DNA of 44,907 bases from a virus. Shown here one piece after another: positions 2,337-42,161 of the stretch (within the stretch, counting starts at the first letter, position 1; the number at the start of each line of letters is the position of its first letter). Below the pieces are notes generated by a model. That model had not been told where the DNA came from. It did no database searches and saw only the letters and a list, made by a program, of their open reading frames with translations. The DNA is taken from positions 1 through 44,907 of IMG/VR virus record IMGVR_UViG_3300036846_000760, one strand, 5' to 3'. The position numbers and the translations under genes were made by a program.

Positions 2337-3521
2337 TCACGTCCCCGGTCGGCGCGCCTTGAACTGGCTTGCCAGCGGCGACGGTGCCGTGTCGTCATCG
2401 GACAGCGCCGCAGCGCCTCCGGCAAGCGGGGCCAGGATGCCGTACTTGCGCAATATCTCTACAATCTTGGGATCGAACACGACGTAGTTGCTGGTCTGGT
2501 CGTCCGCGCGTTTCATCGACTCGAGTTCTTGCATCGCGTCGGAAAGCCTATTTTGATTTGCCTCTGACGGCTCTCTTTTAAGAAGGTCTTCTAGGTCGGC
2601 GGCCTTTTTTTCATACCGCGCTAAATTTGGACGCGGAACGCCGAGCCGCCGCGAGCCTTGATCGAGATACTTGATGCCGGGGATGCCGCTCTCATCAAGA
2701 ATGGCGGCAGCGTCTGCATATGCTGAAGGATCACCAGACCCAGCCAACCTTCTGTAAAATTGTTCACCGGATTCATTCGTTTTGAGCCGCGGCTCTATGT
2801 CTGCCATACGTCCTGCTGAAAGCAACCGGCCCGGGTCTGTTGATTGAGCCGCCAAGGTCTTATCCCAATCAAGGAACTGCGCCGGATCGGCGTTGATGTT
2901 GACCTCGTAGGTGCGCGGGCCGACTGGCTTATCGCTTTGCAATAAATTCAGCATATCCTGGCTATATTTATCGTTGTAATGACGAACAAGACCCTCGGCT
3001 TGATTGATAGCCGATGCACGATCAAACCGATTCGCTTGCAAAATCTGAGCGGCTTCCAATTCAGGGGACCCCTCAAATTTGCGCAAAAACTGATTCCAAT
3101 ATCGCCCGCCCTGCCCCGACACTGCCGGGTTCTCCGCGAAGTACAGCCCGTGACCAAAAGTCTGAAACCCCTCGCCGGTGCCGATCTTCGAGAGATCGAA
3201 CTGATTAAAATCGTGCGGGCTGCCGTGATAGGCCAGGATGCCGCCGATCTTGCTGATCGGCCCGCTGAGCCCCAGCGCGAAATTGGCGGGTGCGCTCTGT
3301 GTGACCTGATGAATGTTCTCCGGCAGAAACGAACGCGCGACATAGTCACGCGGCATCTCGTTCGGCTGCGGTGTTGGCAGTCCGGTGTCGATGTTGACGC
3401 TGTCCGGTATCTGCGGATCGATAAATGGGCGCAGCGGATTGAAATCCGCGAGCCGCCCAAGCCCGGACGATTTGCCCGACCGGGGTGTGATGGCTTGGGC
3501 GAGCAGATCACTGATGCTCAT
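2337..3521 (-). CDS. virion-associated protein with ADP-ribosyltransferase (ART-PolyVal-like) domain
   Basis: The 394-residue product contains, at residues about 97-350, hallmarks of the ART domain found in phage polyvalent proteins: YHGSP (98-102), GTGEGFQTFGHGLYFAEN (114-131) and, near the end, NYVVFD (345-350). The H and Y of the first two motifs match the NAD-binding H-Y-E pattern; the third acidic residue was not pinned down. Such proteins could modify host factors after co-injection with DNA. ATG 3521 is chosen because it overlaps the upstream 50-aa gene as TGATG; a GTG at 3545 would overlap that gene further. It is last in the leftward virion operon, next to the internal proteins, which fits ejection. 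Confidence 0.7.
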   Translation of the reverse strand: MSISDLLAQAITPRSGKSSGLGRLADFNPLRPFIDPQIPDSVNIDTGLPTPQPNEMPRDYVARSFLPENIHQVTQSAPANFALGLSGPISKIGGILAYHGSPHDFNQFDLSKIGTGEGFQTFGHGLYFAENPAVSGQGGRYWNQFLRKFEGSPELEAAQILQANRFDRASAINQAEGLVRHYNDKYSQDMLNLLQSDKPVGPRTYEVNINADPAQFLDWDKTLAAQSTDPGRLLSAGRMADIEPRLKTNESGEQFYRRLAGSGDPSAYADAAAILDESGIPGIKYLDQGSRRLGVPRPNLARYEKKAADLEDLLKREPSEANQNRLSDAMQELESMKRADDQTSNYVVFDPKIVEILRKYGILAPLAGGAAALSDDDTAPSPLASQFKARRPGT

Positions 3522-36558: not shown

Positions 36559-36774
36559 GTGGACGAACGGCTTAACACTGCACTCGAAAACATGTCGGAG
36601 ATGCTTGTTGTTCGCGCCACAGATAGCCGTTCCGTCATAGCGCCGCATGAGGCTGTTGCGATCCTTCAGGCGTTGGCGCTGCATCAGATTTCAGCGAGCC
36701 TCGAATATATCGGAGAATCCCTGGCTGCGATTGAACGAGAGAAATATCTCAATGACCCAGAAAAGCCACGCTGA
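36559..36774 (+). CDS. hypothetical protein, 71 aa
   Basis: GTG 36559 follows a good GAAGGAGATGTGAG ribosome site and gives a 71-residue, mainly helical product (NTALENMSEMLVVRATDS..., HEAVAILQALALHQISASLE). Its end overlaps the DUF2800 nuclease gene by 23 bases, implying coupled translation. No family recognised; a small DNA-metabolism accessory is likely only by location. Confidence 0.5.
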   Translation: MDERLNTALENMSEMLVVRATDSRSVIAPHEAVAILQALALHQISASLEYIGESLAAIEREKYLNDPEKPR

Positions 36775-37903
36775 CGCCGCGCCATCCGCCGCATCAAGCT
36801 GGATCGCGTGTCCCGCATTCGTGACCAAGACGCGCGGGATGGAACGGCGCAGTACCATCTACGCCCGCGAGGGCACGGCGGCGCACGAAGTGGCGGCAAC
36901 ACTGCTCACGACCGGCGAAGCCCCCAAGAGCGTCACCGTCGAAGACGATGTGTTCGTCGTGGACGACGACATGATGGATGCACTGGAGCCGTATCTCCGG
37001 TTTGTGCGCGAGACCACGACCCGCACCGATTTCACCAACATCGAGACCAAGGTGTCGATCTCCGGCCTGCCCGAGCCGGTCCATGGGACTGCCGACATGA
37101 TCGCGCTGGCGCGCTGGGAGAAGACGCTCGACATCGCCGATCTGAAGTTTGGGCGCGGTGTGCCTGTGGAGGCTTCCAACAACGCCCAGATGCGCGTCTA
37201 TGCATTGGGTGCCCTGGAGGCGCTGGGTCCGTTCGAGGACGTGGCGCGCGTCCGTATGACGATTGTGCAGCCACGTATCGAGGACGGCGATGTCATCAAG
37301 AGCGAAACAATTTCGATCGATGAGCTTGCGGCCTGGAAAAACGACGTGTTCATGCCTGCAGTGTCGCGGATCGCCGCTGGTGATACAACTGAACACGCTG
37401 GCGTACATTGCCGATGGTGCCCGCGTGCCCATGAGTGTGATGAATTGCAAGCGCTCGTCGGCAAGAAAGCGATGGTGGCGTTCAATCAGGCCCCGCCGCT
37501 AGCGTCAACGATATCCGATGACGATCTTGCGCGCATCTACGACTACAGCAAGCTGATCCTGGCGTGGGTCAGCCGTGTCGAGGAGGAGATTCGCGATCGG
37601 CTCGACAAGGGCAAGACCATCCCCGGCTATCATCTCGTGCCCAAGCGCGCCATGCGGCAATGGATCGATGAAGACGCCGCCCTGCACTATCTCACCCGCA
37701 AGCTGACGCTGCCGATCATCGACATCACCAAGCTGGTCTCGCCCGCCGCCGTCGAGCGTGTGATGAAGACGCACAAGATCAAGGACGCGGCGGTCGAGGA
37801 GCTGTGGAAGAAGGAGAGCAGCGGCAGCACGATTGCGCCGATCGGCGGCCGCGCCGGTGTTCCCGCGTCACGGGACGCGAGTTTAATTTTTGAAAAAATT
37901 TAG
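36752..37903 (+). CDS. DUF2800 phage nuclease (RecB/Cas4-like)
   Basis: The 383-residue product begins PSAASSWIACPAFVTKT, a DUF2800 signature, and has RecB/Cas4-like motifs: AREGTAAHEVAATLL (first acidic/His region), VHGTADMIAL (about 115) and LDIADLKFGRGVPV (about 128-141; D and K of the GhII/QxxxY-type core). The C-terminus has CRWCPRAHEC, a cysteine cluster that could hold an iron-sulphur centre. The family is thought to process DNA ends in phage recombination. It is followed 11 bases later by the ssDNA-binding gene. Confidence 0.75.
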   Translation: MTQKSHADAAPSAASSWIACPAFVTKTRGMERRSTIYAREGTAAHEVAATLLTTGEAPKSVTVEDDVFVVDDDMMDALEPYLRFVRETTTRTDFTNIETKVSISGLPEPVHGTADMIALARWEKTLDIADLKFGRGVPVEASNNAQMRVYALGALEALGPFEDVARVRMTIVQPRIEDGDVIKSETISIDELAAWKNDVFMPAVSRIAAGDTTEHAGVHCRWCPRAHECDELQALVGKKAMVAFNQAPPLASTISDDDLARIYDYSKLILAWVSRVEEEIRDRLDKGKTIPGYHLVPKRAMRQWIDEDAALHYLTRKLTLPIIDITKLVSPAAVERVMKTHKIKDAAVEELWKKESSGSTIAPIGGRAGVPASRDASLIFEKI

Positions 37904-37914
37904 CGGAGGATTCC

Positions 37915-38661
37915 ATGTCCACGAATCTGTTCACCCCGGTTGGTTTGCTCGCGTTCCCACATCTATTCACGCCGCGTCCGCGCGCGGAGGGTAAGACACC
38001 AGACTTCAACGCCACGCTGATCTTCGACGTTGATGCACAGATGACGCCGGAATTCCGGGCGATGCAAACGGCGGTGAACGAATTGGCCCATGAGAAGGCC
38101 GCGAAATACGTACAATCGCTGACGTATCCGTGGCGTGCGGGCGCGGAAAAAGCCGAGATATATCCCGGCGTGTTCGGCAGCGACGATATATACGTCAGTC
38201 CGTGGTCGAGCTATCGCCCCGGTATCGTGGATCGCGACGGTAACTTGATCGAAGACCCTCAGGCTGTGTGGGCCGGGCAGACCGCGCGCATGCAAATCCA
38301 TCCGTTTTTTTGGGAGGTCAGTGGCAAACGGGGCATCTCATTTGGGCTCGACAACGTCCAGGTCGTTGACATTGACGGCCCGCGTCTCGATGGGCGCATA
38401 GGCGCACAGCAGGCGTTCGCGCAGGCCCCGCCGCTCTTGGGCTACGCCGGTGCACCGCGCATCATGCGACCGGCAACGCCGCGTCTGGCGACGACACGTC
38501 CAGCGCCGCCGCCGCGGCCACAACAAATGCCGGAGACACACACAACGCCGCCTGTCGGCAGCGGGCGCGTGATGGCACCGCGTCCCAGCGCCCAATCGGC
38601 AGCAGCGGATCGGTTCAATCGGCCGCTATCGGATGACATGGACGACCCGATGCCATTTTAA
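37915..38661 (+). CDS. DUF2815 single-stranded DNA-binding protein
   Basis: The 248-residue product (MSTNLFTPVGLLAFPHLFTP...) matches DUF2815 phage ssDNA-binding proteins: FNATLIFDVDAQMTPEF, YPGVFGSDDIYVSPWSSYRP, and GISFGLDNVQVVDIDG, then a Pro/Ala-rich linker (about 175-235) and an acidic tail ending DDMDDPMPF. A terminal acidic-Phe tip is the hallmark by which SSB-type proteins recruit partners. It acts in replication and recombination with the neighbouring DUF2800 nuclease. ATG 37915 follows GCGGAGG. Array 1 starts 7 bases after its stop. Confidence 0.8.
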   Translation: MSTNLFTPVGLLAFPHLFTPRPRAEGKTPDFNATLIFDVDAQMTPEFRAMQTAVNELAHEKAAKYVQSLTYPWRAGAEKAEIYPGVFGSDDIYVSPWSSYRPGIVDRDGNLIEDPQAVWAGQTARMQIHPFFWEVSGKRGISFGLDNVQVVDIDGPRLDGRIGAQQAFAQAPPLLGYAGAPRIMRPATPRLATTRPAPPPRPQQMPETHTTPPVGSGRVMAPRPSAQSAAADRFNRPLSDDMDDPMPF

Positions 38662-38667
38662 ACCCAA

Positions 38668-39406
38668 GGTCTGGTGAGGTCAGGCGGGGTGCGGCATGGC
38701 TAGGCACGGCTCGGTTCGGCGGGGTCCGGCAAGGCGTGGTTCGGTGGGGCTAGGTTTGGTTGAGCATGGTTCGGTTAGGCGTGGTGCGGCATGGCAAGGC
38801 ACGGTTTGGTGTGGTTCGGCGCGGTTAGGTCAGGTTTGGCACGGTTCGGCATGGTCTGGTCTGGTGTGGCATGGCTAGGTTCGGTTGGGTCGGGTTCGGT
38901 TAGGCACGGTGCGGCATGGCAGGGTCCGGTTCGGTTTGGTGGGGTTTGGCTAGGCGAGGTCGGGTTGGGTTTGGCGTGGAGTGGTTAGGCATGGCACGGC
39001 AGGGTGCGGTCCGGTCTGGCATGGTCTGGCTTGGTGTGCTGGGGCAGGGTTGGGTGAGGTCAGGTGCGGCGTGGCGAGGCCCGGTTTGGCATCGTCTGGT
39101 CAGGCAGGGTTAGGCGCGGTCGAGCAAGGTTAGGTTCGGTAGGGCGTGGTTGGGTGCGGTTTGGTTCGGTTTGGTTCGGTATGGCACGGTCAGGTCCGGT
39201 GAGGCACGGTCGGGCACGGCGCGGTATGGCCGGGCGTGGTTTGGCGAGATGTGCTTGGTTTGGTGCGGCACGGTCGGGCACGGCGCGGTTTGGCAGGGCT
39301 TGGTCCGGTCGGGTGAGGTGTGGCGCGGTTCGGCGCGGTCTGGTTTGGCATGGTTAGGCACGGTTAGGTCTGGTTCGGTACGGCTTGGTTCGGCGAGGCT
39401 TGGCTT
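38668..39406 (+). repeat. degenerate GGYNN pentamer array 1 (148 units)
   Basis: From 38668 to 39406 the plus strand reads as 148 head-to-tail pentamers. Of these, 142 start with GG (exceptions AGCAT, GCTGG, CGTCT, AGCAA, GATGT and a 4-base GCTT), and position 3 is C or T in all but one (GGAGT). Positions 4-5 take nearly any value. One 1-base deletion at 39253 shifts the phase; nothing else does. The array begins 7 bases after the DUF2815 stop and ends 28 bases before the next start. It has stops in all forward frames and no ribosome-site-like AGGAG. Confidence 0.95.
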
Positions 39407-39434
39407 AGTTTTCAACAACAAGAGGGATAACAAA

Positions 39435-40058
39435 ATGAACAAGGCAGAAAAAGTAGTGTTGAGCGATCCCGGTAACGGCGGCAACGAAGCGATTTCGTTC
39501 TCGCAGCCATACACGGCGCACGTCACGGTGACCGGTGTCGCGGATTTCATTTTCCACGGCTGGGACCCGGAAGCGGTGGAGGAAAAAGGACGTGCCGCGA
39601 AAGGCAGCAAGGCAAAAAAAACCGACAACATCAATTCGTATATCTATCGCGACGAAAACAACATGTTGGCGATTCCCGGCGAATACTTGCGCATGTGCGT
39701 CTGTAACGCCGCGAAGTTTCGCCAAGACCCGCGATCTCCGCGCAAGTCTGCAATGGACTTGTACAAAGCTGGCATCGTTGTCTTGAACAAGTTCGGCAGC
39801 CTTGGCACGGAGGCGTGGGACTATCTCGACAAGCGGCGCGTCGTCGTACAGCGCAACGGGATCAATCGCACGCGGCCTGCAATGCGCGCAGGCTGGGTCG
39901 TCTCGTATGAGGTGATGTGTCTGTTACCCGAGTACATTCCGCCACATGATCTTCTGGATACAATTGGAGTTGCCGGTCGTCTTGTCGGGTTGGGAAATTT
40001 TCGACCGACCTACGGCAGATTTTCCGTGACGAGTTTTGCTGTTCAAGACGCGATTTAA
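39435..40058 (+). CDS. unknown protein flanked by two pentamer arrays, 207 aa
   Basis: ATG 39435 follows AGAGGG; the longer frame to 39150 is array sequence. The 207-residue product is globular: AHVTVTGVADFIFHGWDPEA (about 30-49), a Lys-rich loop (RAAKGSKAKKTDN), NSYIYRDENNMLAIPGEYLR (about 68-87) and a C-terminal GLGNFRPTYGRFSVTSF (about 185-201). The last motif recurs in uncharacterised phage proteins I can recall, but I cannot name a family. Base composition of this gene is lower in GC than its neighbours. Its location between two like arrays suggests it is functionally linked to them or carried by them. Confidence 0.7.
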   Translation: MNKAEKVVLSDPGNGGNEAISFSQPYTAHVTVTGVADFIFHGWDPEAVEEKGRAAKGSKAKKTDNINSYIYRDENNMLAIPGEYLRMCVCNAAKFRQDPRSPRKSAMDLYKAGIVVLNKFGSLGTEAWDYLDKRRVVVQRNGINRTRPAMRAGWVVSYEVMCLLPEYIPPHDLLDTIGVAGRLVGLGNFRPTYGRFSVTSFAVQDAI

Positions 40059-40073
40059 CGAGACATCAAGCAA

Positions 40074-40493
40074 GGCTTGGTAGGGTCCGGCACGGCATGG
40101 CAAGGTCGGGTCAGGCGTGGTGAGGTATGGCATGGTTCGGCATGCTCGGGCGAGGTGCGGTCGGGTAGGGTTTGGTAAGGCCCGGCGTGGTGCGGCGATG
40201 TGTGGCGCGGCAGGGCATGGCAGGGCGAGGTCGGGTATGGTCCGGTCTGGTTTGGTCGGGTAGGGCAAGGCATGGTTTGGCGAGGTTTGCTGCGGTCGGT
40301 TCGGGCGCGGCATGGCACGGCCCGGCTTGGTTTGGTTTGGTCCGGTGTGGCAAGGCGCGGTTGGGCATGGCGTGGTTGGGCGTGGTGAGGTCGGGCATGG
40401 CTTGGCAAGATCGGGTGCGGCGTGGTCGGGTCTGGCGGGGCATGGCAAGGTCGGGCATGGCAAGGTCGGGCGAGCTATGGCGAGGTTTGGTTT
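40074..40493 (+). repeat. degenerate GGYNN pentamer array 2 (84 units)
   Basis: Exactly 84 pentamers (420 bp) run in a single phase from GGCTT at 40074 to GGTTT at 40489-40493. Of these, 78 start with GG; the six exceptions (GCTCG, TGTGT, GCTGC, GTTCG, GATCG, GCTAT) keep position 3 as T. Position 3 is C or T in all 84. There is no insertion or deletion. It starts 16 bases after the unknown gene's stop and ends just before a small hairpin (TTTCAC/GTGAAA, 40493-40510). Its orientation is the same as array 1. Confidence 0.95.
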
Positions 40494-40541: not shown

Positions 40542-42161
40542 ATGGACCGCAGCATCACCATCAACATCACTGTCACCGACGACCAGAACGATGGACTGCT
40601 ATTGTCCGAGACTGACATTTCGGTCGTCATTCCGCCGGTCGCGCAGTGGGTGGTGGAGATCACCTGCAACGGCGGCGTCGTCGTCCTCAATCAGGACAGC
40701 GGTGTTGACCTCGGCACCTTCGACAGTGGCGACATCCATCAGCGGTGTCTGTCGTTCTACGTGCGCGAGATTGACCTGACGGTGTTCTTCCGGCCTGAGG
40801 CCGATGGTTCGCGCCAGGAGATCGTCTTTGAGCGCGGCAATTGTTTCCTGGGCGGCGACATCGAGGGCGACATCGGGTCATACACCGCGCGCATCTACAA
40901 CGAGGGTGTGCTGAAGGAGAGCGTCAGCATCGCGCACCACTACGCGTTCACCCGCTGGCGTTGGCAGTCCGCGCCGCGTCCGATCATCGCCGACATCGAC
41001 AGCCTGCTCGCGCTGCATTTAATCCCTGCATTGCGGCGCGATTCGGAGCGCCCGCCGGTCTCCATGCCGGTCCCTTATGCCCCGCTGGGGCTGGCGGGCG
41101 TCTATCCCCACATGCCCGACGCTGGCGAGCGTCCCGACATCGGTCTGCTCACGGACCCGCAGGCGGAATACGTCGTCACCGGCAGCGCGTCGTCGCTGGA
41201 GGTGGTGATGGCGCAAGCGGAAGCCTCCGGCTCGATCCCGTGGCACATGCGTGACGAGCGTGTCGGTGCGCCGATCAATTTCGAGACCTATCCGAAAGCG
41301 TGTTGGTATCAAGGGCAGGGTCAAGGCGAGCCGTTTGTCTATGTGCCGCCGCATCCCGAGATCATCGTGGACGAGGCTCACCAGCCCGCGCTGGCCTATC
41401 TGCCGTACCTTATGACCGGCGATCCGTATTATCTGGAAGCGCTGCAATTCCAGGCGACATGGAATTACGGCTCGACCTCGCTGGGATATCGTCCGACGCT
41501 GTCGCAGACGCGGCAGTTCGCGTGGAGCATGCGGACGCTGGGACAGTGCGTCAAGGTGACGCCGGAGAACGTGCCGTCGTGGCTGAACCCGCGCGACTAC
41601 TGGCAGGGCATGCTCGACAAGCACCGCGATTTTTTCACCGGGATGTACATGATGAGCGAGTCCCGTTTCCAGACGCTGTTCCGTTCTACCGACAACATCA
41701 GCGGCAAGAAAGCAGACGGCAATTTCCCCGAGGGTACGTGGTGTCAGCCGTGGCAGAGCGAGTTCCTCGGCAGCGTCTTTGGCTGGCTGGTGGCGCTGGG
41801 CAATGAGGATTGGCGCGCGGCATTCGAGTGGGTGCTGCAAGGCACGATCGACCGCACCAGCGGCTGTGAGTGGCCGCGTGCGCTGTGTACGCCGTATCAG
41901 ATGATGCTCTGCGAAAGCAAAGGCGCAGAACCGGCACGCTCCTACACCGAAGCGTGGTTCATCAATGCCGAGATCGCGGGCCTCGACTACACCGATGCTA
42001 ATGCGTGGCAGCAGGATGATATGACGTATCTGACCTATACGCGCGGCGCGCTGACCTATGCCGTGATGCATGGCCTCGATGCCGGCGACAACCTCGCGTG
42101 GGTCGATGCGCAATTCCAGCACCGGCACCAACTGCCTGCCTTCAAGTGGAGCCTTGCGTGA
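40542..42161 (+). CDS. large unknown protein, 539 aa, possible alpha/alpha-barrel
   Basis: ATG 40542 follows TGAGGCG. The N-terminal 150 residues are beta-rich (ITINITVTDDQNDGLLLSET... CFLGGDIEGDIGSYTARIYN), like a surface-exposed beta-sandwich. The rest is helical with aromatic motifs: YLPYLMTGDPYYLEALQFQA, WSMRTLGQCVKVTPENVPSW, FWLVALGNEDWRAAFEWVLQ-type segments, suggestive of an (alpha/alpha)-toroid as in polysaccharide lyases or hydrolases. No catalytic residues could be assigned. A depolymerase or virion protein inside an early operon would be unusual. Function unknown. Confidence 0.6.
   Translation: MDRSITINITVTDDQNDGLLLSETDISVVIPPVAQWVVEITCNGGVVVLNQDSGVDLGTFDSGDIHQRCLSFYVREIDLTVFFRPEADGSRQEIVFERGNCFLGGDIEGDIGSYTARIYNEGVLKESVSIAHHYAFTRWRWQSAPRPIIADIDSLLALHLIPALRRDSERPPVSMPVPYAPLGLAGVYPHMPDAGERPDIGLLTDPQAEYVVTGSASSLEVVMAQAEASGSIPWHMRDERVGAPINFETYPKACWYQGQGQGEPFVYVPPHPEIIVDEAHQPALAYLPYLMTGDPYYLEALQFQATWNYGSTSLGYRPTLSQTRQFAWSMRTLGQCVKVTPENVPSWLNPRDYWQGMLDKHRDFFTGMYMMSESRFQTLFRSTDNISGKKADGNFPEGTWCQPWQSEFLGSVFGWLVALGNEDWRAAFEWVLQGTIDRTSGCEWPRALCTPYQMMLCESKGAEPARSYTEAWFINAEIAGLDYTDANAWQQDDMTYLTYTRGALTYAVMHGLDAGDNLAWVDAQFQHRHQLPAFKWSLA

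Follow-up and report, generated by a model that had tools for sequence, protein, structure and literature searches.

VIPR (Viral Interference Programmable Repeat) systems were first reported in a 2026 preprint (PMC13142463; bioRxiv 2026.04.26.720920), in which two of them, from the phage SUSP1 and from a Pseudomonas fulva prophage, were characterised in detail. Their parts are a RAMP protein, Vipr, and vrRNAs of alternating GGY and NN, and a complex of SUSP1 Vipr with GGY/NN RNA was demonstrated experimentally (PMC13142463). Double-stranded DNA is recognised through the NN pairs, which pass over one base for every unit, and this base is usually at the wobble position of a codon; the targets are competing phages, sometimes the VIPR systems of these competitors, and binding represses transcription (PMC13142463). 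Staggered arrays with overlapping vrRNAs are also mentioned in this work, in which VIPR systems are sorted into seven types (PMC13142463). The window analysed here, a stretch of 44,907 nucleotides of viral DNA (IMG/VR record IMGVR_UViG_3300036846_000760), holds a further member of this already described kind of system (Table 1). It is very likely that RNA from the arrays beside its vipr gene guides the encoded protein in repressing genes of competing phages, with one guide aimed at the vipr genes of rivals.

Table 1. Features of the VIPR locus and its upstream neighbours (positions in the window)
Feature	Position	Strand	Remark
vipr gene	39435..40058	+	207-aa RAMP/Cas7-like protein; phrog_4652
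Array 1a: 117 GGYNN units, few irregular	38668..39252	+	candidate vrRNA source
Array 1b: 30 clean GGYNN units	39257..39406	+	3' of 4-nt phase break
Array 2: 84 GGYNN units	40074..40493	+	downstream of vipr
11-unit guide TA AC TA CT TC AC TT TC GA TT TT	39352..39406	+	fits rival vipr genes, 1-nt skip rule
Small hairpin TTTCAC...GTGAAA	40493..40512	+	just 3' of array 2
Gp2.5-like ssDNA-binding protein	37915..38661	+	upstream neighbour, context only
DUF2800/PD-(D/E)XK exonuclease	36752..37903	+	upstream neighbour, context only

The vipr reading frame begins with ATG, directly 3' of a ribosome site (AAGAGGGA), and its 207-residue translation matches PHROG 4652, a family of unknown function, with an E-value of 1.5e-14; no model for it was found in Pfam, NCBIfam or PADLOC. 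Among solved proteins, a profile of three homologues matched only 36pp, titled 'SUSP1 Vipr protein', at E 3.7e-10, and with a profile of 40 homologues the same entry was matched at E 2.5e-31, a degree of homology that places the protein in the Vipr family. The alignment of 40 homologues also gave an AlphaFold2 model (pLDDT 90.4, pTM 0.82), for which all matches listed by Foldseek and VIA-align are to CRISPR effectors, most of them RAMP chains of the Csm3/Cas7 type, the best structural Z among the matches listed being 12.3 over 164 residues. The absence of 36pp from these fold-search matches is uninformative because the library ends in April 2026. A glycine-rich loop, GRLVGxGxFRPTYGRF, is kept across the homologues, and together with the predicted structure this indicates an RRM core with a glycine-rich loop, as in the RAMP fold. 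On homology and this model the protein is Vipr, the RAMP (Cas7-like) protein of VIPR systems, and these profile and structure searches supply the family name that the initial annotation could not give.

Array 1 (38668-39406) lies 5' of vipr and is split into arrays 1a and 1b by a 4-nt phase break at 39253-39256. Over arrays 1 and 2 there are 219 clean GGYNN units and about a dozen irregular ones. Both arrays are intergenic, non-coding and on the same strand as vipr, which itself lies outside the repeats; the gene thus stands as initially annotated, with pentamer arrays on both sides (38668-39406 and 40074-40493), a clear ribosome site and start, and no share in the repeats. Eight consecutive GGYNN units occur 133 times in the window and 0 times in 100 dinucleotide-preserving shuffles, and the locus has, next to vipr, the alternating GGY/NN tandem repeats of a VIPR system. 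The hairpin that follows array 2 is a weak candidate for a possible RNA end, its folding being no better than that of shuffles. The sequence 3' of the arrays has no unusual structure and a structured 3' tail of the SUSP1 type was not seen there, nor were tails seen between the units inside the arrays; an Rfam search at the arrays found no family, hammerhead ribozymes included. The Y of the units in the window (38668-40493) is not free: C favours a following purine at N1 and T favours a pyrimidine (odds ratio 12.7, p 7e-17), and of 43 testable loci, 8 have coupling in the same direction at p<1e-3, among them L027, L115, L207, L092 and L158. Directly after array 2, at 40542-42161, a 539-aa protein is encoded that has no Pfam, PHROG or PDB match. 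When the neighbours were clustered over about 116 loci, the commonest cluster was present in just 14 and there was no constant accessory gene; given that no neighbour recurs in more than this number, an accessory gene is not proposed.

The association between arrays and the protein was found in both search directions. Scanning viral contigs with a pattern defined on DNA only, (GGYNN)x9+GGY, returned 120 loci, 85 of which encode a homologue, in every case on the same strand as the array and at most 1.5 kb from it. When loci were fetched by protein, array segments lay no more than 1.5 kb from the homologue gene in 93 of the 114, at a density of 6.31 segments per 10 kb within that distance versus 0.025 beyond it (about 250-fold), and 199 of the 202 segments near a homologue lie on the gene strand. 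The link is general and is not confined to the window. Co-occurrence with GGYNN arrays was among the checks proposed in the initial annotation, and homologues that lack arrays and have an unrelated known function did not turn up. Of the suggested roles, that the protein binds, makes or spreads the arrays, a functional link is borne out by this co-occurrence and by homology to Vipr, for which the RNA complex of SUSP1 has been shown (PMC13142463). Binding was close to right, since by analogy the protein most likely binds RNA transcribed from the arrays; making or spreading them gained no support.

Phage DSL-LC04 encodes a Vipr homologue of 59% identity just downstream of a short GGYNN array (L003 10001-10618; OR003939.1, WJZ48083.1), and this protein is annotated as a 'helix-turn-helix transcriptional regulator' although it is a Vipr homologue. 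On a cyanobacterial scaffold of Stenomitos rutilans, vipr is present twice (L212 and L213), the copies being separated by about 102 kb, and no arrays were detected there at the score cut-off used. The guides of L135 (2500-3215) comprise about 10-14 GGYNN units each, and between them lie similar sequences of ~60 nt with GCTG...CAGC-like elements, which are probable vrRNA tails. The arrays of the window and of L144, unlike those of related loci such as L135, are uninterrupted and tail-less.

For decoding, the fetched DNA (5.5 Mb over both strands, arrays masked) was searched for matches to every 11-unit stretch of the arrays at skips of 0-3 bases. The best scores at skips 0, 1, 2 and 3 were 19, 21, 19 and 18 of 22, with scores above 19 at skip 1 only. 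All of the best 25 skip-1 sites come from a single guide, units 19-29 and the last clean units of array 1b, or from its one-unit shift, and in every case the matched strand is the antisense one of a vipr gene. There are 31 sites that score at least 20/22 at skip 1; when the units of the arrays were shuffled 150 times, no shuffle gave more than 4 such sites, the best score was 20 and 21/22 was never reached. The matches of 20-21/22 are not independent, because a single conserved motif underlies them and vipr genes are abundant in the DNA compared, which was collected around such genes. When its complementary strand is read codon by codon, the guide yields K-K-S-(D/E)-(K/N)-V-(D/E)-S-Y-V-Y. An exact scan of IMG/VR for its 22 specified bases returned a single contig (L246), in which the 22/22 site is inside a vipr gene and encodes the peptide KKSDNVESYVY, the skipped bases coinciding with the wobble positions of its codons. 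In silico, therefore, the NN pairs of one guide fit DNA with a 1-nt skip, which supports the view that the published code works in the arrays of the window, and the location of the exact match, in the vipr gene of another phage, points to phages disarming each other.

This guide is the only one in the window with an identified target. Exact scans of viral contigs with three further segments, the starts of arrays 2, 1b and 1a, gave no match, and the L246 phage's own array had nothing above background against the window. A match of array 2 in L116 (20/24) was set aside as a repetitive AT-AA-CG motif, and high scores at skip 0 come mainly from low-complexity runs of A or AC. Pseudo-proteins decoded from the arrays had no tblastn match in phages, a result that is expected because the guides are short. 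A second guide directed at vipr was found at L167, where the first guide after that locus's own vipr (3124-3188) spells RTRPALKAGWQA, another conserved Vipr motif; it has sense matches of 21/22 in the vipr genes of L098 and L141, scores 17/22 in its own vipr and had no match in an exact scan of viral contigs. Beyond the window and L167, the other loci have no general excess of guides aimed at vipr; a score of at least 19 was reached by 4 source loci at skip 1, against none at skip 0, 3 at skip 2 and 6 at skip 3. A guide of L227 (9844-9908; assigned to Phycisphaeraceae) matches L238 (2226-2235; assigned to Phycisphaerales) with 21/22 at skip 1, at a site outside vipr.

It is suggested that the flanking arrays are transcribed and that several Vipr subunits bind the array RNA, with probably a single subunit on each GGYNN unit. 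The protein would grip the GGY triplets, and double-stranded DNA would be read by the NN pairs as NNxNNxNNx, one base being skipped per unit, such that the bound RNP could block transcription of genes of competing phages. That the RNA is expressed, that the RNP assembles, and that it binds DNA and causes repression are all proposed here by analogy with the work on SUSP1; the basis within the window is homology, the predicted fold, the association with arrays and an exact gapped match placed in a vipr gene. Since the guide formed by the last 11 units before vipr would read the antisense strand of a conserved stretch in the vipr genes of other phages, with the skip on wobble positions, the phage probably shuts off the VIPR systems of its rivals. 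A more specific version can be put forward only tentatively: the locus may represent a variant in which a very long tail-less GGYNN transcript serves as overlapping guides in any register, the vipr-adjacent guide acts against the KK(S/T)D..ESYVY codons of rivals, and the phage's own vipr is spared through changes in codons and residues.

Given that the phage's own vipr has the vipr-matching guide in its 5' leader region and also contains the conserved motif, it is conceivable that the arrays serve a Cas7-like RNA-binding protein in tuning its own expression and not that of rivals. This scenario is very unlikely, as the homologous site in the phage's own vipr scores just 16/22 against 22/22 in the vipr of another phage and 21/22 in nine fetched loci, and 84% of 124 relatives outscore it. 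Nor is it at all probable that the locus is a VIPR system with its real targets elsewhere and that the 22/22 match arose by coincidence: only one guide is involved, its target is within a conserved motif and the other exact scans were empty, but 22 specified bases gave a single match in the whole collection, this match is in a vipr gene and in the predicted codon register, and shuffled arrays did not come within one mismatch of a full match.

An extremely unlikely alternative is that the arrays are DNA elements, such as a replication origin or packaging or recombination sites, to which the neighbouring protein binds as DNA. The G-rich, strand-asymmetric repeats do adjoin genes for ssDNA-binding and exonuclease proteins; however, the fold of the family is that of RAMP proteins, one member with a solved structure has been shown by experiment to be RNA-guided (PMC13142463), and the NN positions hold a readable gapped code. 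A VIPR system directed at other phages is therefore the preferred reading. With it, the 1-nt-skip code as published gains support from the raw sequence of a locus in a distant clade, the large phrog_4652 clade labelled 'unknown function' gains a likely role, and a natural guide-target pair is provided in which the VIPR of one phage appears aimed at the vipr gene of another.

Compared with the Csm3/Cas7 RAMP backbone of class 1 CRISPR-Cas, the window protein shares the fold and the glycine-rich loop, and for it, too, polymerisation along a guide RNA with pairing interrupted periodically is predicted. In contrast to those systems, the window has no CRISPR repeats or spacers, the unit is of 5 nt and identity to Cas7 chains is just about 10-15%. 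A tandem repeat scan found no CRISPR array of identical repeats and unique spacers, GGY alone being constant in the 5-nt unit, and no Cas5, Cas8/Cas10 or other companion cas genes were present among the ten window ORFs scanned. Several features are shared with VIPR (PMC13142463): the locus is encoded by a phage, its small RAMP protein has a single RRM and is a homologue of SUSP1 Vipr, GGY/NN repeats flank the gene, the code has a 1-nt skip that falls on codon wobble bases, and one guide is directed against another VIPR system. Nevertheless, the protein is just distantly similar to SUSP1 Vipr in sequence, and no recurrent vap neighbour was found in its clade, whereas type II (SUSP1-like) systems carry this accessory gene beside vipr. 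Furthermore, systems of the SUSP1 type have separate vrRNAs of ~100 nt, with 9-16 units and a conserved, structured tail at the 3' end, whereas the window has uninterrupted arrays of 117, 30 and 84 units in which 3' tails between guides are not visible. In summary, the locus is distinguished among VIPR systems by its long tail-less arrays and by an anti-VIPR guide adjacent to vipr.
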